Shown: positions 22,120-47,727, counted from the stretch's first letter. The stretch is 64,000 nt of DNA from Flavobacteriaceae bacterium (GCA_024643425.1 JAHEMY010000002.1:1-64000), one strand, 5' to 3'. Notes: a model not told the origin generated them from the letters alone. Translations and numbers: made by a program.

Positions 22120-22500
22120 TTATTTAGGTTCAATTATTAAAAAGACTGCAGTACTATCGCCGATATTTTCCACTTCATGCACAGTAATTTCATTCTTGCG
22201 AAAATGGTATCCCGTTGGGACATTGAGTTCTCGGGTTCCTTGCTCGTCTGTTATTCGAAAAGTGCTTCCCTTTAAAGTGTACCCAAAATGAGGGGCATGC
22301 TCGTGGCGTTCATGACCCACTCCGGGAGGAAAGGTGCACTGCAACACTCGAATCGAGTCGTCCTCTTGTAAGACTTCGCAGGTTTGAACTCCTTCCCACC
22401 CTGCTTCCAAAGGATCGGGTAATTTAGGGGTGTTTTCACAGCTTGTACAGAGGATTGAAACTAGCAAGGTCTGTTTGATTAATATAAAGGGATGCTTCAA
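22120..22500 (-). CDS. cupin-domain lipoprotein
   Basis: A 126-aa protein with a short signal peptide ending in a lipobox-like LCTSC (Cys near residue 21). The rest is one small cupin barrel: CTFPPGVGHERHEHAPHFGYTL supplies motif 1 with several metal-binding His (GHERHEH), and HFRKNEITVHEVENIGD supplies motif 2 with a His. It is likely a periplasmic metal-dependent binding protein or enzyme of unknown substrate. It is separated by 49 bp from the last gene of the DUF6090 array, so it may be read through from it. Confidence 0.82.
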   Translation of the reverse strand: MKHPFILIKQTLLVSILCTSCENTPKLPDPLEAGWEGVQTCEVLQEDDSIRVLQCTFPPGVGHERHEHAPHFGYTLKGSTFRITDEQGTRELNVPTGYHFRKNEITVHEVENIGDSTAVFLIIEPK

Positions 22501-22549: not shown

Positions 22550-23305
22550 TCATTTTTGGATCAAATTTAATTCGTTCTCAAGGAGTTTTATAATCAAGGT
22601 GTTTTGCTCTTTTACAACATTCAATTCATAGATAGCATCTAAAGTATGTGTGTTTCTTTCGGAAATATAATCTTCAAATAAAGGGTCGTTCAGCAGTCCC
22701 TGATAGTCGGACGTAAATTTACTAGCTCCTAATTCTGTATGTTGAATGCTCCGGTAATCTCTACTCCGTATAAAACGACTAAATACCTCATCCGAATTCA
22801 ATCGATGTTCGGTGGCCCTGTCTTCATTTTCTTTAGCATCCGCAACCAGATCCGGCCAAGCAAAGAGCAAGCTCACCAAGGAGTCGTTTTTGATAAGGTG
22901 AATGGTTCCTGAGGATATTCCCGACCGGAGCGCACCATTTAATGGATCGAAGGTCCATAACCAACTCGTGTTTTGAATGATTTGACGCAACGAATCTCTT
23001 TCGATTAACACGGCATCTTCAGGATTAAGATTTAATAATTGAAAGGTGCTCTTCAGTACCTTTTCATCATAAAAAATAACCGTATCTAATTGTTCTAGGT
23101 TCGACGTAAACTCGACTTTGAGTGCTTTCAAGAGCGCCAATTTTTTGCTTTGATCCTTGCGCGAATCGTTCCAACTGTTTACTTGAAAAGCAATCAAAAT
23201 TCCGATGACCACTAAGAAAATTTCACCGAGAGCATATTTAAAATAACGTCTTTTTTTACCTTCCTTTAGAAGTGTTTGTCGCATGCGACGAAAGAAATTT
23301 GTCAT
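22550..23305 (-). CDS. DUF6090 family protein, array copy 1 (type A)
   Basis: A 251-aa protein with the DUF6090 N-terminus: a basic amphipathic start (NFFRRMRQTLL), a K-x-x-R-Y-x-x-Y-A-x-G-E-I signature and one membrane span near residues 28-42 (EIFLVVIGILIAFQVN), then W-N-D. The remaining 200 residues are helical, charged and probably periplasmic. They hold the type A core DPLNGALRSGISSG and HLIKNDSLVSLLFAW (about residues 120-152). The family function is unknown. It is the last gene of the array; nothing downstream is coupled except possibly the cupin gene. Confidence 0.9.
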   Translation of the reverse strand: MTNFFRRMRQTLLKEGKKRRYFKYALGEIFLVVIGILIAFQVNSWNDSRKDQSKKLALLKALKVEFTSNLEQLDTVIFYDEKVLKSTFQLLNLNPEDAVLIERDSLRQIIQNTSWLWTFDPLNGALRSGISSGTIHLIKNDSLVSLLFAWPDLVADAKENEDRATEHRLNSDEVFSRFIRSRDYRSIQHTELGASKFTSDYQGLLNDPLFEDYISERNTHTLDAIYELNVVKEQNTLIIKLLENELNLIQK

Positions 23306-23308
23306 AGG

Positions 23309-24031
23309 CTATTTAATTTCAGCATCAATTAATTTGAGGATCTTATCAATTTCTAAATCAAGGCCTTTATAATTTTCAATAATGTAGCCAATTCCTTTGC
23401 TTCTTCGGGAAACAATATTTTCAAATTGAGGATTTTCAAATAAGGAAAAGACGTTTCTATTAAATCTGGAAGCTTTATTAAAATTGTGAAAATCAATAAT
23501 AAAGGGAGTTAAATACGTGTCTCCAAAGTCCATGATACGAACCTCATCTTCCTTGGTATCTTGAAGTTCACCAAACCATCTCGACAGAAGTAGCCGTAGG
23601 CTATCGTTTTTAATAAGGTTTAATTCACCGGATCCCATAAGATTATTTAAGGCTCCATTAGATGGATCGTATGTGGAATAGGCACCCATGCCGCCTATCA
23701 GGCTTCGAATATTTATGGTCTTAGGGTCCATCTGTTCAATAGGTAATTGAAACAAGGTTAATAAACTATCTTCTCTGTCTTTTAAGCGCGTAGCTTTTTC
23801 AATATTTCGATGGAGTTCGTTTTTGTTATAATTGAATTCCGACTTTAAAACTTTCAAGATTTTTTGCTCTTCCTTATCCTTCTGCCGTTGGGTATTCCAA
23901 TTATTAATTTGAAGGGCGATTAAGATTCCAATAACCACCAAAAAGATTTCACCAAGTGCATATATAGCGTATTTGCTTACCCGATTTTCGGTGAGTAGTT
24001 TACGACGAATATTTCGAAAGAATTTTATCAT
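23309..24031 (-). CDS. DUF6090 family protein, array copy 2 (type A)
   Basis: A 240-aa member with the membrane span in EIFLVVIGILIALQINNWN (about residues 28-46). The C-terminal half holds DPSNGALNNLMGSGELNL and IKNDSLRLLLSRW, very close to copies 1 and 7, so these three form one subgroup. It starts inside the stop of the copy 3 gene (4-bp ATGA overlap) and ends 3 bp before copy 1, so translation is coupled on both sides. The role is unknown; the array context is all that can be added. Confidence 0.92.
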   Translation of the reverse strand: MIKFFRNIRRKLLTENRVSKYAIYALGEIFLVVIGILIALQINNWNTQRQKDKEEQKILKVLKSEFNYNKNELHRNIEKATRLKDREDSLLTLFQLPIEQMDPKTINIRSLIGGMGAYSTYDPSNGALNNLMGSGELNLIKNDSLRLLLSRWFGELQDTKEDEVRIMDFGDTYLTPFIIDFHNFNKASRFNRNVFSLFENPQFENIVSRRSKGIGYIIENYKGLDLEIDKILKLIDAEIK

Positions 24032-24762
24032 GGTTTAGTAGATAATCCATTGGATCGAATCTCAGAGATCAACTGCAAAGCATCGTTTTTATAGGATTGT
24101 AGATGAGGAATATAAATTCTGTAATAAACAGTATAGAATCTAGTTACTTGATTTTTATATTCTGGATCATGGAGCGCATACTCGATAAAATCATCATTTA
24201 GTTTTTTCATTAAATAATCGGAATACCAAGGATGATTTTCGGTCCAAAATTGATCCCTTCGATTGAATATTGCATTAATACTATGTTGATCTACATCAAT
24301 TTCAGTGCTATAAAATGAATAAAATTGATGGATGGATTTTACAAATTCGCGATTATCGGTATTCCGAAATTCAGAGAAATCCGATAAGAGGTTATAGCCT
24401 TTATCGAGCAAAGAGATATCCGGAAACCCGGAAAGGATGAAAGGGTAAAACGTACCCTCCTGATAGTCTTCAAGGGTTATTTCATCGTTGATGACTTTTT
24501 CAAATATCGGTTGTGCCTTCAAACTATTTGTCAATAAGGAATCGATATTGGCTATATCCATTTCTAAATCGGACGCAATTCTTTCATAAATGGCTAATAA
24601 TCGCCCTTCTTTTTTTCGCACTTCATTCCAGTTATTGATCTGTAACGCGATCAATATTCCAATAACCACAAGGAAAATTTCCCCTATAGCATATTTTAAA
24701 TACCTAGAGGTTTTACCTTCGTTTACCAGAGATTGACGGATGCGTCGAAAAAAGGGAGTCAT
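24028..24762 (-). CDS. DUF6090 family protein, array copy 3 (type B)
   Basis: A 244-aa member starting FFRRIRQSLVNEGKTSRYLKY, shown here by its core RQSLVNEGKTSRY, with the span at about residues 28-46. The soluble half differs from type A: AIYERIASDLEMDIANIDSLL, then LSGFPDISLLDKGYNLLSDF and a C-terminal Y-rich helix (FYTVYYRIYIPHL). It pairs with copy 4, which has the same GYNLL and tail pattern. It is coupled to copy 2 by a 4-bp overlap, and the 63-aa coiled-coil gene lies 13 bp upstream. Confidence 0.92.
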   Translation of the reverse strand: MTPFFRRIRQSLVNEGKTSRYLKYAIGEIFLVVIGILIALQINNWNEVRKKEGRLLAIYERIASDLEMDIANIDSLLTNSLKAQPIFEKVINDEITLEDYQEGTFYPFILSGFPDISLLDKGYNLLSDFSEFRNTDNREFVKSIHQFYSFYSTEIDVDQHSINAIFNRRDQFWTENHPWYSDYLMKKLNDDFIEYALHDPEYKNQVTRFYTVYYRIYIPHLQSYKNDALQLISEIRSNGLSTKP

Positions 24763-24775
24763 AGTATATTTTTAA

Positions 24776-24967
24776 TTACCCTAATTTACCATCACCATCA
24801 ATGTCTTTCAGCACATGTTCTTCCAGCGCGATCAATGTTTTTTTAAGTAAACCCCGTGTTTTATCGAGCTCTGTTTCCAGTTGTGTTACTCGATCTTCAA
24901 GGCTTTTAGACTTGTCTTTCTGTGTTTGCAATTCGTCTTGCTGAATAAGGTCCCAAAATATTCCCAT
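24776..24967 (-). CDS. 63-aa coiled-coil protein with Ca-loop-like tail, inside the DUF6090 array
   Basis: A small soluble protein beginning MGIFWDLIQQ, followed by a long heptad-type helix (SLEDRVTQLETELDKTRGLL, about residues 22-41) and ending LKDIDGDGKLG. The tail DIDGDGKLG (55-63) looks like the first two thirds of an EF-hand or dockerin-type calcium loop, but it is cut by the C-terminus. I know no function for it. Its place between two DUF6090 genes suggests it works with them, perhaps pairing through the coiled coil; this is inference. Confidence 0.75.
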   Translation of the reverse strand: MGIFWDLIQQDELQTQKDKSKSLEDRVTQLETELDKTRGLLKKTLIALEEHVLKDIDGDGKLG

Positions 24968-25025
24968 GGTGTATAATGTTAGTTGTTTAAAGTACTAATT
25001 TACTGATTAAATTTCCCTCACGTTA

Positions 25026-25748
25026 TTATGTTTCATTTTTGCTAATCTCCTCAATAAGCAGTTCAGCATCACGTATAAATTCTTCTAAAATAGGAGTGTA
25101 TATAGAAAAATGGAGGATGTAATAGGTCGCGATTCGATTCTTGAAATCTTGGTCGTTTAAGGCGTATTGGATGTACCCTTCAAAATCTCTGCTTGTCATA
25201 AAATCGGCATACCAGGTTGTGTTTTTTTCAAAATAAAAGATATTCTTCTTTAAATTCTCCATACGAAGTATGTCATCTCCTTCAAATTCAACCCTATAGC
25301 GGGTATAGAATTGGGTGATCTTCATTTGCAAATTGCTCTGACTTCCATCGGTCGCAGATACAAAATTGTTCAATAAATTATATCCTCTTGTATCCACGGC
25401 CCAGTCCGGATACCCATTTAGGATGTCCAAACAAGGAGTGCAATCGCGAAATTCGGCTTCGGTCATGTTCCCATCCAAAATCTTGTCGATGGCTATTTGC
25501 TTTGGTTTCGTAGCGTCTAAAATATACTGGATCTCTAGAATGTCACTTTTTAGATCTTCAACAACCGTATTGTAAATGGCAGCTAGGGCTTGCTTTGATT
25601 TTCGATGTTCGTTCCAATTGTTGATCTGAAGGGCAATCAAAATTCCTATTACAACCAATACAACTTCTCCAAGGGCATATTTAAAGTACCTGCGTGATTT
25701 ACCGTCTTCCATGAGACTTTTGCGAATATTTTTAAAAAATGTTAGCAT
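25026..25748 (-). CDS. DUF6090 family protein, array copy 4 (type B)
   Basis: A 240-aa member with the span in EVVLVVIGILIALQINNWNE (about residues 28-47). The soluble half has AIYNTVVEDLKSDILEIQYIL, CTPCLDILNGYPDWAV with a C-x2-C pair (about residues 103-106) and TRGYNLLNNF, which group it with copy 3; the C-x2-C pair is absent there and could form a disulfide in the periplasm. Its start codon directly abuts the stop of copy 5 with no spacer. There are 58 bp without a gene between it and the coiled-coil gene. Confidence 0.92.
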   Translation of the reverse strand: MLTFFKNIRKSLMEDGKSRRYFKYALGEVVLVVIGILIALQINNWNEHRKSKQALAAIYNTVVEDLKSDILEIQYILDATKPKQIAIDKILDGNMTEAEFRDCTPCLDILNGYPDWAVDTRGYNLLNNFVSATDGSQSNLQMKITQFYTRYRVEFEGDDILRMENLKKNIFYFEKNTTWYADFMTSRDFEGYIQYALNDQDFKNRIATYYILHFSIYTPILEEFIRDAELLIEEISKNET

Positions 25749-26573
25749 TTAGGGTGTCGTGTTTTCAATTTGGTACTCCTCTTCAAGCATTTTAATAAGG
25801 GTTTTTGCGTCGTACATAATTTGTGGTAATTCGTTAAATGCCCTTGTTTCTAAATTGTCTTGTATGATGATAAAATAATTGGCTAATTCCTTCAATTGAA
25901 TATTGTCGTAGGTTAACATGGGCACATCATGCTCCTTGGCTTTTGGATAATCCTGAGATAAAAAATGGTTCTCGTTTATTGGGTCATCAGGACTTACATA
26001 AGAGATAAGCTCAGAAAAATAGGGGGCATTAAAATCGATGATTTTCGAGGTGAGTTGCTCGGCGTATTCCACCTTATTTTTATCATATTGAAAATCTTCA
26101 TCCAAATGTTTTGAGAAAGCTTCATAGCGCACCAATTTGTTTTTCAGGCTGTCGTTGGTAATAAATCGTAAACTGCCGGAACCCTTTAATTCTTCAAGGG
26201 TGGAGCGATTCCATTTAAAAGGGCGGTATAGCATATCGTTGGTATATACAAAGAGATCGGTGTTCGATAGTTCTTTAGGAGGCGTTTTTTTTAAATAGGA
26301 TTTTAAACTATCGATTTTGTGAAAGGAAAATTCAGCTTGTCCTTGGCATACTTCTAACATTTCAATATCGTTCGTAAGATCTTGGATTAAGGACCGCGCA
26401 TACTCTGTGATTTTTCGTTGTTCTAGCCGTGTTTCGTTCCAGTTATTTACTTGAAGCGCAATCAGAATTCCGATGACCACAAGAATGATCTCTCCAAGTG
26501 CATATTTAATGTATTTGGCTGTTTTATCGGTTTCAATGAGCGATTTACGGATCTTGCGAAAAAATTTAATCAT
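25749..26573 (-). CDS. DUF6090 family protein, array copy 5 (type C)
   Basis: A 274-aa member. The N-terminus and span (EIILVVIGILIALQVNNWNE, about residues 28-47) are standard. The soluble half belongs with copies 9 and 10: YARSLIQDLTNDIEML, then FKWNRSTLEELKGSG and LRFITNDSLKNKLVRY, keeping the SG-x-L-x-x-I-x-N-D-S-L core of the family, followed by a long tail ending in an acidic helix (KTLIKMLEEEYQ). It abuts copy 4 and is 6 bp from copy 6. Confidence 0.92.
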   Translation of the reverse strand: MIKFFRKIRKSLIETDKTAKYIKYALGEIILVVIGILIALQVNNWNETRLEQRKITEYARSLIQDLTNDIEMLEVCQGQAEFSFHKIDSLKSYLKKTPPKELSNTDLFVYTNDMLYRPFKWNRSTLEELKGSGSLRFITNDSLKNKLVRYEAFSKHLDEDFQYDKNKVEYAEQLTSKIIDFNAPYFSELISYVSPDDPINENHFLSQDYPKAKEHDVPMLTYDNIQLKELANYFIIIQDNLETRAFNELPQIMYDAKTLIKMLEEEYQIENTTP

Positions 26574-26579
26574 GGCATC

Positions 26580-27302
26580 TTAGGGTTTGGTGAGCTCAAT
26601 AATCTGATCCATAGTCTCTTTTACAATTTCCATTTCTTTGGTACTATTCTCTAAGATATCTAAAAGATCTTGTTGCCGTTGTCGAATAATGTTTTCAAAT
26701 TCTAAGGAGGGCAAAATAGTCTGATCAAATCGGGGGTCAAAGATATCTCCATCCCACTGAAAGTTTTTCATGGTATAAGGATCCAGTTTGTTACGCACAA
26801 AATCGGCAGCCAGAGCTTCTTCCCCTTGGTAATCGATTACGATATCGTTCCAACTTATAAGCAATTGTCGCAGGGTATCGTTAGAAATAAGTTCAATGGA
26901 AGATGAATTAATCATGGCATCCACCGTCCCTTGCGTAGGATCGAAGGTATATCGTTTAAAAAGGTTTAAAAATGCAGTTTGAATAGTATCGTTCAAACCC
27001 GGAGTAAGTAGTTGTATCGGAAATTGATTAATTATACTATTACATGCTTTAAGAGCACTTTTATGATTTTTTATGACGGTGTCAAATTGTGCCTTATTGG
27101 AGATAAATTCTTCGTGCAGAGACTTTAAATACACCATTTCGCGATGATGCAATTTTCTGTTTTCGTTCCAATTACTTACCTGAAGCGCGATAAGGATCCC
27201 AATTACCACAAGGAATATTTCTCCTATGGCATATTTCAGATACTTGCGGTTTTTTCCGTCCTTGAGCATACGCTTTCTTAATTTTTTATAAAAACTAATC
27301 AT
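26580..27302 (-). CDS. DUF6090 family protein, array copy 6 (type A)
   Basis: A 240-aa member beginning SFYKKLRKRMLKDGKNRKY, here with span EIFLVVIGILIALQVSNWNE at about residues 28-47. The soluble half has the type A core YTFDPTQGTVDAMINSS and ELISNDTLRQLLISW and a C-terminal RQQDLLDILENSTKE helix. In the array it starts 8 bp inside the end of the copy 7 gene, so the two are translationally coupled. Confidence 0.92.
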   Translation of the reverse strand: MISFYKKLRKRMLKDGKNRKYLKYAIGEIFLVVIGILIALQVSNWNENRKLHHREMVYLKSLHEEFISNKAQFDTVIKNHKSALKACNSIINQFPIQLLTPGLNDTIQTAFLNLFKRYTFDPTQGTVDAMINSSSIELISNDTLRQLLISWNDIVIDYQGEEALAADFVRNKLDPYTMKNFQWDGDIFDPRFDQTILPSLEFENIIRQRQQDLLDILENSTKEMEIVKETMDQIIELTKP

Positions 27303-28380
27303 TTAGCTTTTCAAATGAATAAGTAAGGTTGGTAAGGTTTAAAATGACGTGGTAATTACCTGCTTCGTCAATCGGGATGTCTGCACCACCTTTTATCGCT
27401 TCCGATTTCAAATAATCTTCAACATCATTAAATGCAACCCCCCAGTTAAGGGTCCAACTATCGTTGCATCTAAATTTAACACGTCCTTCTTTTAAAAACA
27501 CCGTGATTTCCCAAATATTGCGGTCTGGATCCGTTTCAATCATAGGAGTAGAATAGCCTCCTACATCATCAAAGCCGTCTAAAGAGGTGCCAATAATCCC
27601 TACATTTTGATATAAAATTTGCACCTCGGGAAAATAATTCTCAATGGACTTAACCAACGATTTTGCCTCAGATTCAAAGGAAAAGATGACACTTCTTTTG
27701 ACTACAACATGACTGCGATACGATTTTAAGGTAGCTTGTAATTTCTCTTGTTTCAACAAGCTGTCGAACCGATTTAGTTGTGCTTCAGAATAATAAGTGG
27801 GGTCGCTAAAATCCAAACCCTCATTTATTTTTTGTTCATTTATTTTTGGAAATGGGATGTTATTTTCCATCACATCAGCAATTTTTGTAGTGTAATTGAA
27901 AAAACTAAATTGGTCCCAAACTACTTCTGAAACTTTAAGATAGCTTAGAATTTGCATGGCAATATTTGATTGCCACTCTTTCTGGAATTGAGCACTAAAA
28001 AAATCACCATAAAACTGAACATCGGTTTCAAAATAGTCGTTGTCAGAATTATAAGTAGCGAAGAACAATTCTAATTTATCTAATTTTGGAAGGGTGTCGA
28101 TGGGATTCAATAACTGGTCGGTAGCTTGAATGCTGTGTTCTATGAATCCTAATACGCTTTTAAGATTGCTCAAATCGTCTTGTAAGGCAGTATATACCTT
28201 ATTCATCATGTCGTTGAATTGTTCATCTTTTTTACGGTTTTCATTCCAATTTTGAAGTTGCAAGGCCATAAAAATACCTGCCATGATCAATACAATTTCT
28301 CCAAATGCATAAAAGAGGTATTTTGAGAATTTATTCTCGGAGAGGATGCGACGTCGGATATTTTTGAAGAAACTAAGCAT
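27295..28380 (-). CDS. DUF6090 protein with an added SusE/SusF-like C-terminal domain, array copy 7
   Basis: At 361 aa it is about 110 residues longer than its neighbours. Residues 1-50 are the DUF6090 membrane module (YAFGEIVLIMAGIFMALQLQ) and 50-250 a helical segment. Residues about 258-358 look like one SusE/SusF-type beta-sandwich: VGIIGTSLDGFDD, TPMIETDPDRNIWEITVFL, GRVKFRCNDSWTLNWG and a closing EAGNYHVILNLTNLTYSFEK. Such domains occur at the C-terminus of surface starch-binding lipoproteins. Here it would sit in the periplasm at the end of a membrane anchor, and might bind a glycan. It overlaps both neighbours by 8 bp. Confidence 0.85.
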   Translation of the reverse strand: MLSFFKNIRRRILSENKFSKYLFYAFGEIVLIMAGIFMALQLQNWNENRKKDEQFNDMMNKVYTALQDDLSNLKSVLGFIEHSIQATDQLLNPIDTLPKLDKLELFFATYNSDNDYFETDVQFYGDFFSAQFQKEWQSNIAMQILSYLKVSEVVWDQFSFFNYTTKIADVMENNIPFPKINEQKINEGLDFSDPTYYSEAQLNRFDSLLKQEKLQATLKSYRSHVVVKRSVIFSFESEAKSLVKSIENYFPEVQILYQNVGIIGTSLDGFDDVGGYSTPMIETDPDRNIWEITVFLKEGRVKFRCNDSWTLNWGVAFNDVEDYLKSEAIKGGADIPIDEAGNYHVILNLTNLTYSFEKLND

Positions 28381-29125
28381 GAGACAGTTCTTCTAGGATG
28401 GAAGCTCGAAGCTTTTTTAAAAGTTCTATAAATTGTGCGTGCTTTCTTTTTTGGAGTTGTTGCAATTCTAGTTTTAACGTAATAATATTCCAGATTTCCA
28501 TGTTTCCGAATAAATCATTAAAGGTTGTTTTAGGACCACCCTCAATTAATAATTTGGAATACATGGGCAATGCAACTTCACTGTAATTCATGTTTTTAAT
28601 GATGAAAGGCTCTATAATATTTTGATACTGATCGGTTAGATAGGTACTGCCGCGCATTATATAGGCTGAGGCCAATTTAAATTGATAAAAATTTTCTTTA
28701 ATCTCGGTGCTATTTATTTTTGAAATATACCCTTCATTGATGAATTCCGTAATTATCGGATAGGACAATTCCAATGACCACGCCGTTCCCAAATACCCAA
28801 TATGATATTTAAGTTCTTCAATTTTGCTTAGATCGTTATTTTTTAAAATTTCTAAGCCAGCCGTTAAATTTGTAATAATTGTATCATTGTGTTTTGTGTG
28901 GGTTTCAATAGAAGTTATGGTTTCGTCGATATCCCCTATAATTCGTTCATAGTAAGATCGAATTTTTTCATCTTCCAAACGTTTGGAATTGCGGTTATTT
29001 ACCTGCAAAGCAATCAATATTCCTATGATGACCAAAAGTATTTCACCAACCGCATACACGAGGTATTTTCCTGTCTTACTGTTTGTGATGAAATTGAAGC
29101 GCATCCTTCTGAGGAAATTGATCAT
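28373..29125 (-). CDS. DUF6090 family protein, array copy 8 (divergent)
   Basis: A 250-aa member with the standard start (NFLRRMRFNFITNSKTGKY) and span EILLVIIGILIALQVNNRN; note N-R-N where others have N-W-N. The soluble half is the most divergent: YYERIIGDIDETITSIE, TNLTAGLEILKNNDLSKIEEL, LSYPIITEFINEGYISKI, without the SG...NDSL core. It ends in a strongly charged helix (LQQLQKRKHAQFIELLKKL). It starts 2 bp after the TPR lipoprotein gene, so it belongs to that transcription unit. Confidence 0.88.
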   Translation of the reverse strand: MINFLRRMRFNFITNSKTGKYLVYAVGEILLVIIGILIALQVNNRNSKRLEDEKIRSYYERIIGDIDETITSIETHTKHNDTIITNLTAGLEILKNNDLSKIEELKYHIGYLGTAWSLELSYPIITEFINEGYISKINSTEIKENFYQFKLASAYIMRGSTYLTDQYQNIIEPFIIKNMNYSEVALPMYSKLLIEGGPKTTFNDLFGNMEIWNIITLKLELQQLQKRKHAQFIELLKKLRASILEELSHA

Positions 29126-29127
29126 AG

Positions 29128-30645
29128 TTACATCGCTTGAATTTGTGCTATGCCTGCCATTGGAAGGCGTCTTTTTGGTGCCGACTTAAGGGTTAATTCA
29201 TATTGCTCGTGGGCCTCTTTCATGCGTTCTTGCCGTAACAGCCAATCGGCATAGAGTTCACGAACCGGCTTCTGAATAAAAGGAGGGCCAAAGCTGTAAC
29301 TGTTGCTTTCCGCCTCTTCAATCGATTTTAAGAGAAATTCCTCGGCTTTTAGAGGGTCGTTCTTGAGCTCGGCCCGCAAGGCTTCCAATTGATATTTTCG
29401 GGCCAACACCCCTGTTAAATCGCTCGGGGTAACATCCCCTCGATCGGCACTTGCACACATTTTGGGACTGTTGTTGGTAACGATAAAGGATGCCTTGTTA
29501 TACGCATTTTCAGTAACAGCAATAATACTGTCCAAGCGTTCCAAATTTCCTTGTGAAAAGGCTTTCATCCCTTCTAAAAAATAATATTGAGTTTGAATGC
29601 TCACGTTGAGGTCGGCAATGTCCACTGGAATATCGGCAATGTCACTATCCCATTCGTTGGTTTCTACCAAATAGGTTCCTTTTAAGAACACCATATGCAC
29701 TCGAGACCGCTTTGAAGGAGTTTCTGAGACGTATTTCTCAAGATCCAATACCATGTTTTTTGCTTCTTCTTTTTGTGCTTTTTGCAGATACCCATACGCC
29801 AACCAATGGTAAGCATGGTAGCCTCGAGCATCATTATCCAAACCTTTTTCTTTCATGCGGGTCAAACTTGCTTGGTACGAATCGATGTTTGAGGCGATTA
29901 CATTGTCCCACATGCCCATAGCAACAAAGATATGGGAAGGCATGTGTAAGGCATGACTCGCATCCGGCGCTACTTTCGCATAGGCATGGGCCGCATCGAG
30001 TGCGAGTTCGGCGTGGTCAGGGTCGTCGTAACTGTGAATTAAATAGTGCAAAGCACCCGGATGATTCGGGTTTTCTTTTAGGATTCCTTGGGCAATCAAG
30101 GCACCTTTCCCATAGATTTCTACATCACGGCCATCTTCCACAGACCCAAGCAGACTTAATGCATAGAAGGCTGCTACTTCGTGGTTTGAAGGATATTTTT
30201 CTTTCAATGTGGCCATATAAGTAGCATAGGCCTTATCGCGTTCATGTTTATCGGTTTTTGGCTGATACAGAATTTGCACGCCGGTAATAAGATCTTGTTC
30301 CAGGGTACTGCATTTTTCTTTAAAGTTGAATTCGTTTAAATGGCTCAGGGCTGCGACACCTTCTTCATAGTCTTGTTCAGACCAAAGGCTGTGGTTGTAA
30401 GTCATGGCTTCTCCCCAATACGCCATTGGCATTTCCGGATCCATTTTTTGGGCCTCTTGAAACGCTTCTCTGGCGTCTTCATATTCAAACGAATGCAATA
30501 AAAGAAGCCCTTTTTCAAAAGAAGGAATGGCTTCTTGTTTACCACTTACATCGATGCTTACGACCCCTAATTTAGAGGGTTTCGTTTCATGATTTTTACA
30601 TGAAATAAGGGAAATCAATACAAGAAGGATGATAATATTTTTCAT
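29128..30645 (-). CDS. TPR-repeat lipoprotein with conserved His cluster
   Basis: A 505-aa lipoprotein (lipobox LISC, Cys16). The protein is built of TPR helices: FEKGLLLLHSFEYEDAREAF, ALSLLGS, then the histidine-rich GALHYLIHSYDDPDHAELAL and HALHMPSHIFVAMGMWD, and C-terminal repeats (LADWLLRQERMKEAHEQYEL). The H-rich pattern is shared by a wide TPR family of unknown role and could bind metal. It probably faces the periplasm or the cell surface and serves as a protein-interaction scaffold. It sits inside the DUF6090 array, 2 bp before copy 8; a 123-bp gap separates it from copy 9. Confidence 0.88.
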   Translation of the reverse strand: MKNIIILLVLISLISCKNHETKPSKLGVVSIDVSGKQEAIPSFEKGLLLLHSFEYEDAREAFQEAQKMDPEMPMAYWGEAMTYNHSLWSEQDYEEGVAALSHLNEFNFKEKCSTLEQDLITGVQILYQPKTDKHERDKAYATYMATLKEKYPSNHEVAAFYALSLLGSVEDGRDVEIYGKGALIAQGILKENPNHPGALHYLIHSYDDPDHAELALDAAHAYAKVAPDASHALHMPSHIFVAMGMWDNVIASNIDSYQASLTRMKEKGLDNDARGYHAYHWLAYGYLQKAQKEEAKNMVLDLEKYVSETPSKRSRVHMVFLKGTYLVETNEWDSDIADIPVDIADLNVSIQTQYYFLEGMKAFSQGNLERLDSIIAVTENAYNKASFIVTNNSPKMCASADRGDVTPSDLTGVLARKYQLEALRAELKNDPLKAEEFLLKSIEEAESNSYSFGPPFIQKPVRELYADWLLRQERMKEAHEQYELTLKSAPKRRLPMAGIAQIQAM

Positions 30646-30768
30646 GGTTGAAAGGGTTTCAAGGAAAATTATGTTTGGTTGTCTTAACTAAAGATAATGC
30701 TTTTACCCTTACCATTGAAGCTACCTATTCCATGATGAGGAACTTAGACAATAATAAAGGATGGCTCC

Positions 30769-31524
30769 TTAATCAAAATCATTAATTTTTTGAAGTAGGT
30801 TTTGAGCAGTCAATTTTACATCGTCATAGAGTATATTTTGCTTCTCAATTTGAAAGTACCTTCCAAAGATCATTGCTTCCAATGTTCCGTCTTTTAAAAA
30901 TTTTTCTTCATTGAAAATCTTGCCTTCCCTGGGGTCATTGGCAAAGTAATTGTTCAAGCCGGTCCATTGTGTATTTTTATTGATTAAATCATGGTAATGT
31001 TCAAAGAAATAGGGTTCGTACCTATTCTTGATGAACGTATTGCTTATTTCTTCACGAACGGCAATATTGTCCAAGCCGTTATAGTATTTAAACAATAAAT
31101 CTTTTATTTCAACTGGGATATCGGCCAAAGATTCCGAACTGTTCAAGGTTTCAAAACCACTTTTGTTGGGATTGGTTTGTTTTTCAATAATAAGTTCGAA
31201 GATGTATGTCGGTGTAAGTCGGCTAACTGGTTCTATGGTTTGAAACTGATGGGCGAGATGTTTGGCAGCTATCATGGAAGTGTCGGTGAAGTGCTTCATA
31301 TACTCAAGCTGATTGATATCTTCTTTTAAATTCTGAGCAATGGTTTTCAAATGCTGAACGGCGGCGACATGTTTTTTCTTGTTTTCGTTCCAGTTATTAA
31401 TTTGCAGAGCGATAAGAATTCCGATAACTACCAATACAATTTCCCCGAAAGCATACCTGGAATATTTCAGGAATTTATTCTCGGCGGCCAAAGTTCGTCT
31501 AAGATTTCGGTAAAAAGTAATCAT
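30769..31524 (-). CDS. DUF6090 family protein, array copy 9 (type C-like)
   Basis: A 251-aa member with span EIVLVVIGILIALQINNWNE (about residues 28-47). The soluble half (HLKTIAQNLKEDINQLEYM, SRLTPTYIFELIIEK, GFETLNSSESLADI) has a relaxed version of the family core: the SG and NDSL residues are replaced, while the surrounding helices align with copies 5 and 10. It overlaps the copy 10 gene by 4 bp and is followed by 123 bp without a gene, where the TPR gene could have its own promoter (a TATCTTTA box lies there on the complement). Confidence 0.9.
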   Translation of the reverse strand: MITFYRNLRRTLAAENKFLKYSRYAFGEIVLVVIGILIALQINNWNENKKKHVAAVQHLKTIAQNLKEDINQLEYMKHFTDTSMIAAKHLAHQFQTIEPVSRLTPTYIFELIIEKQTNPNKSGFETLNSSESLADIPVEIKDLLFKYYNGLDNIAVREEISNTFIKNRYEPYFFEHYHDLINKNTQWTGLNNYFANDPREGKIFNEEKFLKDGTLEAMIFGRYFQIEKQNILYDDVKLTAQNLLQKINDFD

Positions 31525-32291
31525 GGTTTTGCCATTTCACGGTCAATGATTTTAATAAGCTCCCCACAAGTGGTTTTCATTGCCGTTAATTGCTGATTCA
31601 TCACACTAAATTCATATACAGCCATCACAAAGCCATTTTTATGTTTGAGGTCTTTCAAGAGCGCTTCAAAATTAGCACGAGGTGGGTCAATGTTTTCACC
31701 GGCCTGTCCTTGGGACATCTGGTAGGTGTAATTTTTAACGATGGGGTTTAAGTCTAAAATACCATAAGAAGGTTCATACAACAATACTTCCGCATCATAC
31801 CTAAAATGCTCTTCTTCACTCTTCAATTTTTTATACAAGCTTTCAAGATTTAGCAATTGATTTTTTATGGTGTCGTTTGAAATGATGGCCAAATTCCCTG
31901 AATTGATAAGTTCTTGAAAGGTATTATCGATCTGAAAGAACTTCTGCCAAGTATAAACATTTACTGTTAACTTATTGAAATCGCTCAAATCGGTGATGGG
32001 CTTGCCTTCAAAATGTTCGAGAACCTTATTCGCCGATTCAAGGCGCATCGATCTCATTGTAATGTATTGTTCGATTTCAGCACTATTTAATTGAAGATCC
32101 GATTTGAGGTTTTTTAGGTATTGAAGTTCTTTATTTCGAGTCTTATTCGCTTCGTTGTTGTTGTTAATTTGAAGGGCAATTAAGATTCCGATAACCACCA
32201 AGATAATTTCACCCAGGGCATACAATAGGTATTTACGCACCTTATTTTCAGACAACAGATTTTGCCTAATCTTTCGAAATAGTTGAATCAT
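31521..32291 (-). CDS. DUF6090 family protein, array copy 10 (type C)
   Basis: A 256-aa member, first in transcription order. The N-terminus and span (EIILVVIGILIALQINNNNE) are typical, but NN replaces W in the N-W-N-E signature. The soluble half has YLKNLKSDLQLNSAEIEQYI, FQELINSGNLAIISNDTIKN and YKKLKSEEEHFRYDAE, the clearest type C core. The 67-bp gap before it (32292-32358) has AT-rich sequence but no exact TAnnTTTG on the complement, so it may be transcribed with the upstream MBOAT genes. Confidence 0.92.
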   Translation of the reverse strand: MIQLFRKIRQNLLSENKVRKYLLYALGEIILVVIGILIALQINNNNEANKTRNKELQYLKNLKSDLQLNSAEIEQYITMRSMRLESANKVLEHFEGKPITDLSDFNKLTVNVYTWQKFFQIDNTFQELINSGNLAIISNDTIKNQLLNLESLYKKLKSEEEHFRYDAEVLLYEPSYGILDLNPIVKNYTYQMSQGQAGENIDPPRANFEALLKDLKHKNGFVMAVYEFSVMNQQLTAMKTTCGELIKIIDREMAKP

Positions 32292-32358: not shown

Positions 32359-33774
32359 TTAAAACTGAAAATAAATAAATTGTTCGCCGCTTCCCTGTGA
32401 AATAATGACACCGAACAGGAGAAGCGCCCAAAATAAGGCAAATGTCCAAGGGTTCGTTTTTTTGGCAACTTCTTTCAAGGAGGTGTTTCGCATCCACCAA
32501 TGACAAAGAAACAAGCCAGTGATCACTACAAATACCTTGATGATGTCTAAGGTGTAAAGTATTTTTTCGCCTTCCTCGTTCAGGAAGAACATGGAGGTCA
32601 TCATATTTTTTGCCGTCGAGAATTCTCTGGCACGGAAGAATACCCAAGTAACATTCACAAGAAAATATGTGAGTAAGGCAAGTAAAATGCCATTCCAGGC
32701 ATTAATTTTTAAAGTAAAATGATTTCTTAGGTACCGCTCTGTTACTAGATAAATTCCATGAAGGGCTCCCCATATTACAAAGGTCCAGGCGGCGCCATGC
32801 CATAAACCTCCCAGCAACATAGTAAGCATAAGGGCCACGTACATGCGCGTAATTCCTTGGCGATTTCCTCCCAACGGAATATAGAGGTAATCTCGCAGCC
32901 AAGTAGATAGGGAAATATGCCAACGTTTCCATAAGTCTGAAAATCCAATCGAAGCATAGGGGTATTTAAAGTTGTCGGGTAAATAAATCCCCAACATGAG
33001 TGCAATGCCAATCGCACAGGTACTATAGCCGGCAAAGTCAAAAAATATCTGTCCTGAAAAAGCGAGCGTTCCTGTCCAAGCATCGAGACTATGTAGGAGG
33101 TCTTTACTTCCAAAGACGCGATCTGCCGTGCCCGATAATAGGGTGTCGGCGAGCACTACTTTTTGAAACAGTCCGATGGTAAGTAAAAACAGACCCCATA
33201 AAAATTGCTGAACCGTGGCCTTTTTTTCCTCATAGAATTGAGAAATCAAATCTTGCGCTCTTACGATAGGTCCGGCAACCAATTGAGGAAAGAAAGTCAC
33301 GTAGAGTGCAAAATCCAAGAATGTTCGAGCCCGTTCAATTTTACGATGGTACATGTCGATGGTGTACGACATGGTTTGAAAGGTATAGAAGGAGATTCCC
33401 ATTGGAAGGATGATGTCCATGGGTTGCGCTTCATAATTTACTCCCATAAGATTCATCAAGGCTGTAAAATTTTCCAAAAGGAAGTCACCGTATTTAAAAA
33501 ATGCCAAAAATCCTAAGTTGACACTCATACTAAGAAGCAGCCAGAGTTTTCGTTTTTTGGAATCTTCTAACAGGGCCAATTTCTTTCCGGCTTGCCAATC
33601 GACGATGGTCGAGATCCAAAGTAAGACGACTAAAGGGGGATTCCATAGTCCATAGAACACATAACTAAAGAAGAGAAGCATTCGTTTTTTCCCGTTCCAA
33701 TTAAAAATATTGGAGTAGTACAACCCGAGGACGAGCACCAAAAAAACAACAAAGCTCAATGAATTAAACAGCAT
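32359..33774 (-). CDS. MBOAT family O-acyltransferase (AlgI-like)
   Basis: A 471-aa polytopic membrane protein of AlgI type. It begins with LFNSLSFVVFLVLVLGLYY and has about ten spans. The internal motif PMGISFYTFQTMSYTID, FFPQLVAGPI, WKRWHISLSTWLRDYLYIP and the catalytic-His region GGLWHGAAWTFVIWGALHG are all present. Such enzymes carry acetyl groups across the membrane to be put on exported polymers such as alginate-like polysaccharides or peptidoglycan. Its natural partner, the SGNH-type protein, is encoded 2 bp upstream. The acceptor polymer is unknown; no polysaccharide synthase is in the window. Confidence 0.95.
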   Translation of the reverse strand: MLFNSLSFVVFLVLVLGLYYSNIFNWNGKKRMLLFFSYVFYGLWNPPLVVLLWISTIVDWQAGKKLALLEDSKKRKLWLLLSMSVNLGFLAFFKYGDFLLENFTALMNLMGVNYEAQPMDIILPMGISFYTFQTMSYTIDMYHRKIERARTFLDFALYVTFFPQLVAGPIVRAQDLISQFYEEKKATVQQFLWGLFLLTIGLFQKVVLADTLLSGTADRVFGSKDLLHSLDAWTGTLAFSGQIFFDFAGYSTCAIGIALMLGIYLPDNFKYPYASIGFSDLWKRWHISLSTWLRDYLYIPLGGNRQGITRMYVALMLTMLLGGLWHGAAWTFVIWGALHGIYLVTERYLRNHFTLKINAWNGILLALLTYFLVNVTWVFFRAREFSTAKNMMTSMFFLNEEGEKILYTLDIIKVFVVITGLFLCHWWMRNTSLKEVAKKTNPWTFALFWALLLFGVIISQGSGEQFIYFQF

Positions 33775-33776
33775 GG

Positions 33777-34847
33777 TTAGTTGGGTTTGGTTAAGATTCC
33801 TTGTTCTTCAAAAATTTTGATCAATTCAAGGGTAAAGTAATCAGCGTCTTCTTTGGAAAGGTGTGATAATTCGGGCAGGTTTAATCCTTGAAGTTGGGGG
33901 TAGTCTTCAAAGTGAATGGCAGGTAATTTTGATTTTATGACCAATGAATCCCAAAATTGTTCTCGAGGGTAATCACGTTGTTCCAATTCCCGATATTTCC
34001 CCATCGATGGACAACGCACCAAAACAATGGTCCCGCCTCGTTGGGTATATTGATCGGCATATGTAAGAAAATAAGTTAGGACATCTTTTCTTTTTAGTTG
34101 AAGGTCCTTCTGCATTTTATCATATTCGGTAGAATCGTTAATCTCCTTTTCCCATTCGTCCAACCCCCATGCTTTAATAACCGAATGCGCCAAAACCGTA
34201 TCGTTGGTTGCCTTCTCGCTCATCGCTACATTGCGATCGACCTCCACATCTTCAAAATTATAAAATGGAGGCTGAATGGGTCCGGGCCGCTCTCCCCAAC
34301 GCGCATTTTTTAGTAAGGTTTTTAGATCAACGTCGTCGCTCCATTCTTCATCGCCATCTCTATAAAAAACAAAGGAACGTTGCAATGGAATTGATAGTTG
34401 TTGATTGATACGCTGAGCATACGTCTGATCGTCAGAATAATCTAAAAGGGTTTTGATGCGCTTCCAAGACCAATCGTCTTCCTTGCTTGCCCAAAAGAAA
34501 ATATCGGGAGCTACTCCAACAACCACCAAGCCTTTATAATTTGTTTCTTCTACCAAGTACCTTAGGGTAGGGAGCGGAGTTGCTCCTTGTGTTCCCAACA
34601 TGATGGGTTCTTTTGTGGAGTGATTTCTCCAAACCTCTTTTTGAATGTCGAATAAGATCCTTGACGAACCTATAAAAACTACTTGGTCTGTTCCAGGAGC
34701 TTTTATTTTATTCATTTGACGGGCCCACAATGCTTTATTGTCGTCAATACCCGTTACTCGACCTTGGGAACGCCAATACCATTCCCAGCCTATAATAAGG
34801 ATTAGCCCAATTCCTAATGCTAAGAAAAAGGTCCTCTTTAAATTCAT
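33777..34847 (-). CDS. SGNH-hydrolase-like partner of the MBOAT acyltransferase
   Basis: A 356-aa protein with one N-terminal membrane anchor (FFLALGIGLILIIGWEW). The first SGNH block is VVFIGSSRILFDI, with the likely nucleophile in GSSR; the residues VVGVAPDIFF and a late LSHLSKEDADYFTLEL supply Asp/His-type positions. AlgJ/AlgX- or DltD-like proteins of this kind take an acetyl group from the MBOAT partner and place it on the polymer in the periplasm. It lies 2 bp upstream of the MBOAT gene, so the pair is a unit. An 82-bp stretch (34848-34929) separates it from the arsenic cluster and holds a TATCTTTA-like box. Confidence 0.82.
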   Translation of the reverse strand: MNLKRTFFLALGIGLILIIGWEWYWRSQGRVTGIDDNKALWARQMNKIKAPGTDQVVFIGSSRILFDIQKEVWRNHSTKEPIMLGTQGATPLPTLRYLVEETNYKGLVVVGVAPDIFFWASKEDDWSWKRIKTLLDYSDDQTYAQRINQQLSIPLQRSFVFYRDGDEEWSDDVDLKTLLKNARWGERPGPIQPPFYNFEDVEVDRNVAMSEKATNDTVLAHSVIKAWGLDEWEKEINDSTEYDKMQKDLQLKRKDVLTYFLTYADQYTQRGGTIVLVRCPSMGKYRELEQRDYPREQFWDSLVIKSKLPAIHFEDYPQLQGLNLPELSHLSKEDADYFTLELIKIFEEQGILTKPN

Positions 34848-45479: not shown

Positions 45480-46802
45480 TTATTTTTTTGAATAAGATTC
45501 CGGGGAAGGTAGAATCCAATCGTGGTGTGCGAAGTGTTCCCAGGGAACTGAAGCTAAGTCGACCACAGGATTAATAAAGTCGTGGTAGACCCCGTTGTTG
45601 ATTTTCACCTTGGAAGTCACATAAACCGCCACATCTTTTCCTTTTTCGGCTTCCATTTTTTTTATGCGCTGAGCCATTTGCCAAATAAAGTCAGGCCGAG
45701 ATTTTACGCTGCGCGCCTGTTTTTTTGAAAGTAACGGGGCATAAGGATAATTGTTTCGTTCACCTGTTGCCTTGTCTTCCGCCCAAAAAACAAGCTGTCC
45801 CGAACGTGAACGAAGCATCATGCGCCAGCTCAAACGGTGGCCTTCTTCCGTCCAGAGCACATCGTCTTGAAAGAACCAATGTCTCAAAGGCAGTGCTAGT
45901 TGAACGATTAAATAGGCCCCAAAAAGTAGTATTCCAATATTTTTGAATTGAGGGACAATTACTTCGGAATTGGTGTATACAGAGCGCTTTAATTTGAATG
46001 TTTTGATTAGGGTTTCCGGCGTGAAAAAGAAAAATGCAAAAGCAATACTCATGTAAGGAAAAATGCCAATTTGAAAGACTCCCGAATTAAAAAGGTGAAA
46101 AAATAACGAGCAACAGAAACCGAAAACACGGGTGCGCTTGTAAAGCAATAAAGGAATAATTAACAAGTCGAATAAAATTCCGAAATAGGCAATGCTATAA
46201 TGCACCCAAGGTTGTTGTAAGAACTCCCCTATGAGCCAATAATGGCTTTTACCGCTCATGAACATGGCGGCGACGGAGCCATCGAGCCACTGGGGGTAAA
46301 TTTTAGCAATGGCCGCGTACGTAAACACGATCCAAACTTGGGCAACGAAAACAATTTTCACCCAGCGTGGCATATGGTATTTGCGATAACCGGGCTTTCT
46401 GGCATCGATGGATGCATAGCGATTGGCCGGTAAAAAAATCATGATCCAGCACAAGAGCATCATGAGGTAGTAATGGTTGTTGTAGGATGTTTTCTGCATT
46501 AAATACACCGAAGTCCACATCAAGGCATAGGCCGCCATGGCCCATCGGTATTTATACCCCAACATCACGCAAACGCCAAATGTTCCCATCAAGAGGAAGT
46601 AGTAATACATACCATCGCCCGGGAGTGGTTGCAAGAATTCGAAGCCAATAAAATTGAACGTAAATTCGGGATCGACCAAGACTTCCTTTACCCATCCCGT
46701 CAAGATCGCCCCAAAGGCTTCAATGGTGATTAATAGACCAAAGACGATTCTCCAGAGCGCTAACCCTGTATTATCAATTCTTTGGAATAGTATTTTATCC
46801 AT
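45480..46802 (-). CDS. HTTM (vitamin K-dependent gamma-carboxylase-like) membrane protein
   Basis: A 440-aa protein from the ATG at 46802; its start overlaps the end of ribF. Residues 1-290 are about eight membrane spans with the HTTM pattern: ALWRIVFGLLITIEAFG, YYYFLLMGTFGVCVMLGY, YNNHYYLMMLLCWIMIFLP, WIVFTYAAIAKIYPQWLDG and LFFHLFNSGVFQIGIFPYM. The C-terminal 150 residues are a soluble part. In animals this domain carries gamma-carboxylase; bacterial copies are poorly known. It could modify an exported protein or act as an oxidoreductase; function is open. Confidence 0.85.
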   Translation of the reverse strand: MDKILFQRIDNTGLALWRIVFGLLITIEAFGAILTGWVKEVLVDPEFTFNFIGFEFLQPLPGDGMYYYFLLMGTFGVCVMLGYKYRWAMAAYALMWTSVYLMQKTSYNNHYYLMMLLCWIMIFLPANRYASIDARKPGYRKYHMPRWVKIVFVAQVWIVFTYAAIAKIYPQWLDGSVAAMFMSGKSHYWLIGEFLQQPWVHYSIAYFGILFDLLIIPLLLYKRTRVFGFCCSLFFHLFNSGVFQIGIFPYMSIAFAFFFFTPETLIKTFKLKRSVYTNSEVIVPQFKNIGILLFGAYLIVQLALPLRHWFFQDDVLWTEEGHRLSWRMMLRSRSGQLVFWAEDKATGERNNYPYAPLLSKKQARSVKSRPDFIWQMAQRIKKMEAEKGKDVAVYVTSKVKINNGVYHDFINPVVDLASVPWEHFAHHDWILPSPESYSKK

Positions 46803-47727
46803 GATTGGAAATATAAGTTCGTGCAAATAGTTCGTCTTGTTGAATGGCAGCTTTTAAGGCCTCAACGGAATCAAAATGTTCTTCGTCACGGATCCAGGTC
46901 ACAAATACCAACTGAATGGGTTTTTCATATAAATCGAAAGTAGCATCTAGAATGAATGTTTCAATGGTTCGATGCGTACCCCCAACGGTTGGATTGGTCC
47001 CAATGTTGGTAAGTCCAAAGTAATGGGTGTTATCAACTGCTATTTTTGAGAGGTACACGCCATTTTTTGGAATAAGCTTGTACGATTGATCGACACGTAA
47101 ATTGGCGGTAGGGAACCCTAAGGATTTTCCTATTCCTTTGCCTTTAACTACAGTGCCTTGCAACGAATAAGGGTACCCCAGAAAGCTGTTTGCCGTAAGG
47201 ATATCGCCCTCTTGTAGGGCATTTCTAATTTTTGTTGAACTAACCGCTACATCATCCAATTCTTTCGCCGTAATTTCTTCCACTTCAAAATGATAGGTCG
47301 TGCCAAATTCTTTCAGGTCCTCGATGTTCGCGGTTCTATTGCGACCAAAACGATGGTCGTACCCTATGATGATTTTCTTCGCATGAAGCTGGTTCACCAG
47401 GATATCTCGAACGTATTCAACAGCGGTAAGTCGGGAGAATTCTTTGGTGAAGGGGTGCACTACCAGATGATCAACTCCGAGTGCTGCCAACAGCGCTTTT
47501 TTTTCATCGAGCGTATTTAAAAGTTTAAGGTCGGTATCCTTCTGAAGCACCATCCGAGGATGAGGAAAAAAAGTAAGAAGCACCGACTCCAGGCCCATCT
47601 TGTGAGCACTTTCGACGAGACGTTTTAATATGGCCTTGTGGCCTAAATGAACGCCATCAAAGGTTCCGATGGTAACCACCGAACCTTTTGTATTTTTAAA
47701 ATCTGAAGTAGTATGGTGTTCTTTCAA
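46795..47727 (-). CDS. ribF: bifunctional riboflavin kinase/FAD synthetase
   Basis: A 310-aa enzyme that makes FMN from riboflavin and then FAD. The N-terminal half is the adenylyltransferase (VTIGTFDGVHLGHKAIL near residues 18-34, IIGYDHRFG, SSTKIRNAL). The C-terminal half is the kinase (GYPYSLQGTVVKGKGIGKSLGFPTANL, given by its core GIGKSLGFPTANL; NIGTNPTVGG; ETFILDATFDLY). It starts 1 bp after the pth stop and overlaps the HTTM gene by 8 bp. Confidence 0.97.
   Translation of the reverse strand: MKEHHTTSDFKNTKGSVVTIGTFDGVHLGHKAILKRLVESAHKMGLESVLLTFFPHPRMVLQKDTDLKLLNTLDEKKALLAALGVDHLVVHPFTKEFSRLTAVEYVRDILVNQLHAKKIIIGYDHRFGRNRTANIEDLKEFGTTYHFEVEEITAKELDDVAVSSTKIRNALQEGDILTANSFLGYPYSLQGTVVKGKGIGKSLGFPTANLRVDQSYKLIPKNGVYLSKIAVDNTHYFGLTNIGTNPTVGGTHRTIETFILDATFDLYEKPIQLVFVTWIRDEEHFDSVEALKAAIQQDELFARTYISNHG

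Follow-up and report, generated by a model that had tools for sequence, protein, structure and literature searches.

The window, a stretch of 64,000 nucleotides from a Flavobacteriaceae bacterium, carries ten open reading frames of the DUF6090 family (240-361 aa) on the minus strand between positions 22550 and 32291, and the comparisons presented here suggest that they form one array of a large, horizontally shared repertoire of cassettes. Every DUF6090 gene begins with a constant module, about 150 nt long, and continues into a variable tail. The arrays are placed at fixed chromosomal hotspots and would change mainly by gene-by-gene exchange between species, local duplication having a lesser part; a crossover within the conserved module would set a new tail in frame behind the resident anchor. 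We consider it very probable that the arrays change by exchange through the module. At the level of sequence, the data demonstrate the architecture, the hotspots, the mosaic contents, the horizontal transfer of tails and the breakpoints in the module.

The sequence-only reading of this DNA had described ten tandem paralogs on one strand, with all ends touching and co-translated. The ten genes are real. Family members meet at nine junctions, seven of which fall within -8 to +6 bp; the co-translation claim is only partly right because the other two junctions are interruptions that split the array. One consists of a 505-aa TPR protein (29128-30645) and a gap of 123 bp, the other of a 263-bp gap containing a 63-aa ORF (24776-24967). 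Nine of the ten proteins scored above the 23.5-bit cut-off of the Pfam DUF6090 model (PF19578), which is recorded as of unknown function and begins at the membrane span; the tenth, W8 (28373-29125), scored 16.3 bits, below the cut-off, yet a profile search with the N-terminal module (N-module) detected the module in it. Promoter predictions over the array were no better than those over shuffled sequences. The features of the array and its flanks are:

22120-22500, minus strand: cupin protein, a recurrent hotspot cargo
22550-23305, minus strand: DUF6090 gene W1, 251 aa, PF19578 match
23309-24031, minus strand: DUF6090 gene W2, 240 aa, PF19578 match
24028-24762, minus strand: DUF6090 gene W3, 244 aa, PF19578 match
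24776-24967, minus strand: 63-aa ORF, a coiled coil ending in DIDGDGKLG (EF-hand-like)
25026-25748, minus strand: DUF6090 gene W4, 240 aa, PF19578 match
25749-26573, minus strand: DUF6090 gene W5, 274 aa, PF19578 match
26580-27302, minus strand: DUF6090 gene W6, 240 aa, structure modelled
27295-28380, minus strand: DUF6090 gene W7, 361 aa, extra C-terminal domain
27298-27633, minus strand: C-terminal SusF/SusE-type (starch-binding type) domain of W7, identified via relatives
28373-29125, minus strand: DUF6090 gene W8, 250 aa, divergent tail
29128-30645, minus strand: TPR protein outside the DUF6090 family, 505 aa, lipoprotein-like start, splitting the array
30769-31524, minus strand: DUF6090 gene W9, 251 aa, PF19578 match
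31521-32291, minus strand: DUF6090 gene W10, 256 aa, first after the MBOAT gene, PF19578 match
32142-32291, minus strand: example of the N-module, about the first 150 nt of every family gene, anchor and exchange-breakpoint zone
32359-33774, minus strand: MBOAT O-acyltransferase, conserved hotspot flank
33777-34847, minus strand: 356-aa partner of the MBOAT gene, conserved flank; it matches no Pfam model and resembles AlgJ/SGNH proteins only by eye

Elsewhere in the window (45480-46826, minus strand) lies a gene for a protein with HTTM and vitamin-K-dependent gamma-carboxylase lumenal domains.

The N-module encodes a basic amphipathic helix and one highly conserved membrane span. The first 50 residues of the ten window proteins are on average 59.5% identical, and the remainder 23%; a DNA repeat search of the window that used no protein input recovered the module as nine 131-nt copies of 60-75% identity. 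Across 383 modules, Y21, Y24, G27, E28, L31, G35, I36 and A39 were conserved at about 100%, N43 at 98% and N46 at 91%. Synonymous codon matches among the window modules (0.44) were close to those expected at random (0.41), indicating that the likeness of the modules reflects old purifying selection and not recent gene conversion, and module identity was the same within and between genomes (0.694 in both cases, 480 proteins). Recent conversion of the modules inside the window was rejected on these two grounds. In L078, L081, L184 and contig C99 of G000 (L061), short in-frame insertions (e.g., GSPAETSVKAG, KPAWPVGR) were observed in the N-module, all at one point between the basic helix and the span, and they look like small mobile repeats.

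The family extends far beyond the window. The genome of the window, a draft of 201 contigs, contains 42 DUF6090 matches including the ten described here. Its methionyl-tRNA synthetase shares 73-81% identity with the enzymes of 15 listed genomes, mostly Flavobacteriaceae, and 55% with a Rhodothermia one, which agrees with a place in the Flavobacteriaceae. In a set made up of this genome and 39 relatives, 15 of the 40 had matches (1-42 copies), as did 38 of 198 genomes drawn from the phylum. The complete 4.1-Mb genome of another member of the same bacterial family, G318, has 84 matches, so a single protein family of unknown role can account for roughly 2% of a marine bacterium's genes. Thirty-six of its DUF6090 genes follow one another on one strand over about 32 kb, interrupted at three points (C1:2823628-2855095; L223, L224). 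Many other Bacteroidota loci carry arrays of up to 13 genes, with genes in related loci called with a simple ORF picker and not a trained gene finder; the median spacing at array junctions is 1 bp, 76% of them fall between -20 and +30, and broken DUF6090 copies occur. Copy number ranges from 0 to 22 in the genus of Winogradskyella eximia (G044).

In ten species of the W. eximia genus group, the arrays occupy a common site between two flanking genes, an aldehyde-dehydrogenase-like gene (f0) and a gene for a 1410-aa lipoprotein that is alpha-2-macroglobulin-like by eye (f1). The DNA identity of f0 was 84-90% in most pairs of species and 74-76% for two more distant ones. Between the flanks lie 1-12 DUF6090 genes, mostly unique, and the tail types that are shared recur in differing orders and combinations between species. 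The window array lies at a second hotspot, downstream of the MBOAT gene, which is conserved together with its 356-aa partner in other genera. Among 17 informative relatives (one further contig ends at the site), nine carry 1-4 DUF6090 genes there and eight carry none, compared with ten in the window; the comparison with related genomes proposed in the earlier reading thus found copies recurring at a shared site, and not one or two at unrelated sites. The cupin gene (L208, L210, L215) and the 63-aa ORF of the window recur as cargo at the MBOAT site, where L215, devoid of DUF6090 genes, holds a copy of the 63-aa ORF that is 73% identical. As for the gene on the other side of the window array (MBL), G158 shows no linkage between it and the MBOAT gene, and in G186 and G180 about 30 kb separate the two.

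The best match of each tail was sought for 300 array genes: it was located in the same array for 11, elsewhere in the genome for 3 and in another genome for 275, and 11 had none. In the window, the nearest relative of the W10 tail was gene 3 of L105 (65% identity) and that of the W1 tail was gene 4 of L129 (53%). Of 67 tails from G318, 49 were nearest to a tail of a different genome, and the tails examined in G318 itself were at most 59% identical to each other. Among 480 proteins, an identity of at least 60% was reached by 2 of the 4777 tail pairs within genomes and by 95 of the 110183 pairs between genomes; like tails are therefore not enriched within genomes, a result that falls short of showing real avoidance of duplicates. 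None of the arrays compared first shared three or more ortholog-like tails with another. Local tandem duplication as the source of the arrays was rejected on the nearest-tail statistics, and the expansion by duplication inside a lineage that had been proposed from the window gives way to arrays that are mosaics, assembled from old tail types that species have exchanged.

A birth-and-death expansion, in which genes duplicate in tandem, diverge and are inherited vertically while the N-module is merely under strong constraint, would account for the tandem layout, for the broken copies and for the two clear tandem duplicates that were found (genes 14 and 15 of L175, and genes 11 and 12 of L180), but it fits poorly with nearest tails residing in other genomes and with array contents being scrambled between species at one site. 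It also has to contend with the relation between tails and modules in close pairs. Tails that were 90-99% identical sat behind modules only 87% identical, and tails that were 60-79% identical behind modules of 74-78%, random pairs of modules being 64% identical (409 proteins); since the module is the slowly evolving part family-wide, this inversion points to recombination. The same inversion was detected in pairs from different genera (L078/L105, L079/L092 and L078/L121).

The inversion could be followed along the genes. Just upstream of the gene, the median DNA identity of 47 close pairs was 56%. It reached 77% in the first half of the module, 85% in the second and 88% in the tail, then dropped to 70% over the next 150 nt past the gene and to 57% farther on. 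Where upstream sequences are unlike (35 pairs), identity jumps at the start codon from a level of about 0.3, and it is back down within about 15-30 nt of the stop codon in the 14 pairs with unlike downstream sequence; gene 14 of L126 and gene 21 of L180, for example, match nearly without a break from about nt 30 and have no upstream homology. For 30 of 34 pairs, a two-segment likelihood fit that allowed for the background similarity of modules put a breakpoint within the module, more than half of these at nt 107-145, the module end; this fine evidence comes mainly from one genus and the same genes recur among the pairs, so that the separate events are well below 34. With its breakpoints, this constant segment is the site of tail exchange as well as the membrane anchor; a crossover there would leave the new tail in frame and the operon intact. 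A new tail may arrive by one crossover on each side, in two modules.

Synonymous divergence indicates horizontal transfer of tails. The median dS was 0.31 for close tails, 0.88 for their modules and 0.82 for the f0 flank, with pairs mostly from one genus group and the module estimate resting on 30 codons. For the seven closest tail pairs at the f0/f1 site, tail dS was 0.08-0.31 compared with 0.77-0.88 for f0, and the dS of their N-modules was often around 1; two of these tails, with dS of 0.08 and 0.09, came from a species pair with an f0 dS of 0.82. Tails less diverged than the flanks of their own arrays, and modules less alike than the tails behind them, are not what vertical inheritance would leave, and the birth-and-death expansion, already disfavoured, is in our judgement highly improbable. 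Positive selection in the soluble halves, raised in the sequence-only reading, was not seen in gene-wide dN/dS of the close tails (median 0.20, maximum 0.47); the medians for f0 (0.04) and f1 (0.07) indicate that the tails are less constrained than the flanks.

The structure of W6, modelled with AlphaFold2 from an alignment with 90 relatives (pLDDT 90.9, pTM 0.83), comprises a helix at residues 2-14, a helix at residues 18-92 that forms the span and a stalk, and then a helical bundle; tails in the family would thus be a stalk plus a helical bundle, with an occasional added domain (SusF/SusE, CBM-like, DUF3471 or TPR). The part ahead of the span has a net charge of +5.9 and the part behind it one of -0.2; by the positive-inside rule the N-terminus is predicted to be inside and the tail periplasmic. 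None of 409 tails contains a second span. Together with the charge asymmetry and with fused domains that include glycan-binding types, this supports the earlier description, in which an invariant membrane anchor carries varied heads outside the cytoplasm. A sequence search for solved structures gave no meaningful relative, and a fold search returned only generic helical bundles, none at E below 0.001, the PcaY_PP receptor domain recurring with weak scores among the natural single-domain matches and the second-ranked entry of the viral set being annotated 4HB_MCP. These weak matches are compatible with a repertoire of sensors or receptors, along the lines of the sequence-only reading, in which ligand-binding tails of four-helix type would signal by way of the shared span to one partner used by all members. 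The helical bundle with its membrane stalk is similar in overall outline to 4HB ligand-binding domains, and the conserved span suggests such a partner. Chemoreceptor and histidine-kinase sensors have two spans and a cytoplasmic signalling domain, whereas the DUF6090 proteins have a single span, only about 25 cytoplasmic residues and no cytoplasmic output domain, and no signalling-type kinase, cyclase or transporter recurs beside the arrays; we regard the sensor explanation as unlikely.

Only 31 of 409 members are long enough for an added domain (at least 320 aa). Among these, the C-terminal additions were SusF/SusE, CBM-like, DUF3471 and TPR domains and one amidohydrolase, indicating that the anchor can be joined to quite different tails. 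The amidohydrolase is fused in frame to the N-module in a 545-aa protein (L158:9543-11177, plus strand). The C-terminal domain of W7 recurs in proteins of relatives, most of which are SusE/SusF proteins (PF14292, PF16411); scanned alone against Pfam it had no match, PF16411 was detected in one array member at E = 0.0082, and the W7 model was of low confidence (pLDDT 37.6, alignment of three sequences). When neighbours were clustered across arrays, no recurrent toxin, phage or signalling gene adjoined them; the recurrent neighbours were assorted hydrolases, permeases and metabolic genes, with secreted peptidases and hydrolases among those nearby. A 111-aa protein family (TerB-like by eye) was observed beside or between DUF6090 genes in L070, L078, L175, L179, L180 and L189.

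Glycan binding would fit the SusF/SusE and CBM-like fusions just as well. The DUF6090 proteins could accordingly be envelope or glycan accessories tied to neighbouring secreted hydrolases and acyltransferases, free of any arms race, with swaps following diet or surface-polysaccharide variation, and the DUF3471 fusions, the position of the window array after an O-acyltransferase gene and the recurrence of secreted peptidases and hydrolases agree with this. The small share of members with room for an added domain does not, and neither do neighbours that vary by hotspot or an MBOAT pair that stands without DUF6090 genes in eight of 17 relatives, which leaves such a role quite improbable.

We favour instead a repertoire of periplasmic heads for recognition or protection. 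The constant span may bring all members into one inner-membrane assembly or to one partner, while phage injection proteins, toxins or similar agents that cross the envelope may each be recognised or blocked by different tails; with a shared anchor partner and differing tail targets, an array would be an acquired repertoire of recognition or protection. This reading draws on the hotspot location, the horizontal exchange of single heads, the many heads per genome and the strongly constrained anchor, and we give the function taken by itself somewhat less than an even chance; the whole explanation, exchange mechanism and function jointly, is in our estimate slightly better than an even bet. None of the ten window proteins matched a PADLOC model. 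No DUF6090 relative was found among viral contigs, phage records and plasmid records, and PHROGs matches appeared only at E = 0.006-0.008; a phage or plasmid origin, including superinfection exclusion encoded by a prophage, was rejected for want of any phage, viral-contig or plasmid copy. The pattern of exchange makes the function of a DUF a testable question, that is, what bacteria gain by trading heads.

Some features of the arrays are shared with described systems. In CdiA, Rhs and other polymorphic toxins, a constant N-terminal part is followed by a variable C-terminal part that is swapped by recombination, as in DUF6090 genes; the latter encode small single-span proteins in many tandem copies, however, with no visible toxin domain or immunity pair. 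Integron cassettes are likewise co-oriented, interchangeable single-gene units at a fixed site, but they depend on an integrase and attC sites, whereas the DUF6090 arrays have no integrase, their exchange zone is coding sequence, and genes that abut or overlap leave no room for attC sites. The 4HB_MCP-type domains (PcaY_PP) have in common with the tails a helical bundle outside the membrane, a weak similarity of fold only.

The nearest described analogue appears to be the recombinase-associated acquired interbacterial defence (rAID) arrays of Bacteroidales, characterized by a tyrosine recombinase, conserved intergenic motifs, GC below 41% and homology to immunity proteins beside secreted effectors (PMC12247911). 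Like these, and in the same phylum, the DUF6090 arrays consist of co-oriented, short, low-GC genes that are diverse between genomes. GC of the ten window genes, 0.335-0.382, falls below the 41% limit of rAID arrays; the trait is weak in the window because the remainder of it is itself only 0.407. The conserved sequence of the DUF6090 arrays is, in contrast, the in-frame code of the anchor: the window array has no conserved intergenic motif, its genes abut, and the sole repeat lies inside coding sequence. No tyrosine recombinase was detected at the arrays of G044 and G060 or the main arrays of G024, and the two in the genome of the window (contigs C199 and C22) are on contigs without DUF6090 genes. 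No cognate effector is known for the DUF6090 arrays, and the clustering of array neighbours found no recurrent effector-like one.

None of the papers in the collection searched contains the word DUF6090, and wider searches gave nothing relevant, so the arrays, the hotspots and the tail exchange appear to be undescribed. The arrays may represent an undescribed kind of acquired repertoire in Bacteroidota, in which the coding sequence of the anchor serves as homology handle, with no dedicated recombinase, for up to 84 anchored proteins per genome whose heads are traded between species, a proposal that we hold to be possible and rather doubtful. Recombinase-free shuffling of cassettes through a conserved anchor module could be sought in other tandem families. 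Two single genes, L077:7531-8190 (minus strand) and L095:4575-5231 (plus strand), carry a diverged module (GEILIVIIGISIAFGIN; LEFIVVIIGILLAFQLN), which suggests a wider superfamily of one-span proteins.
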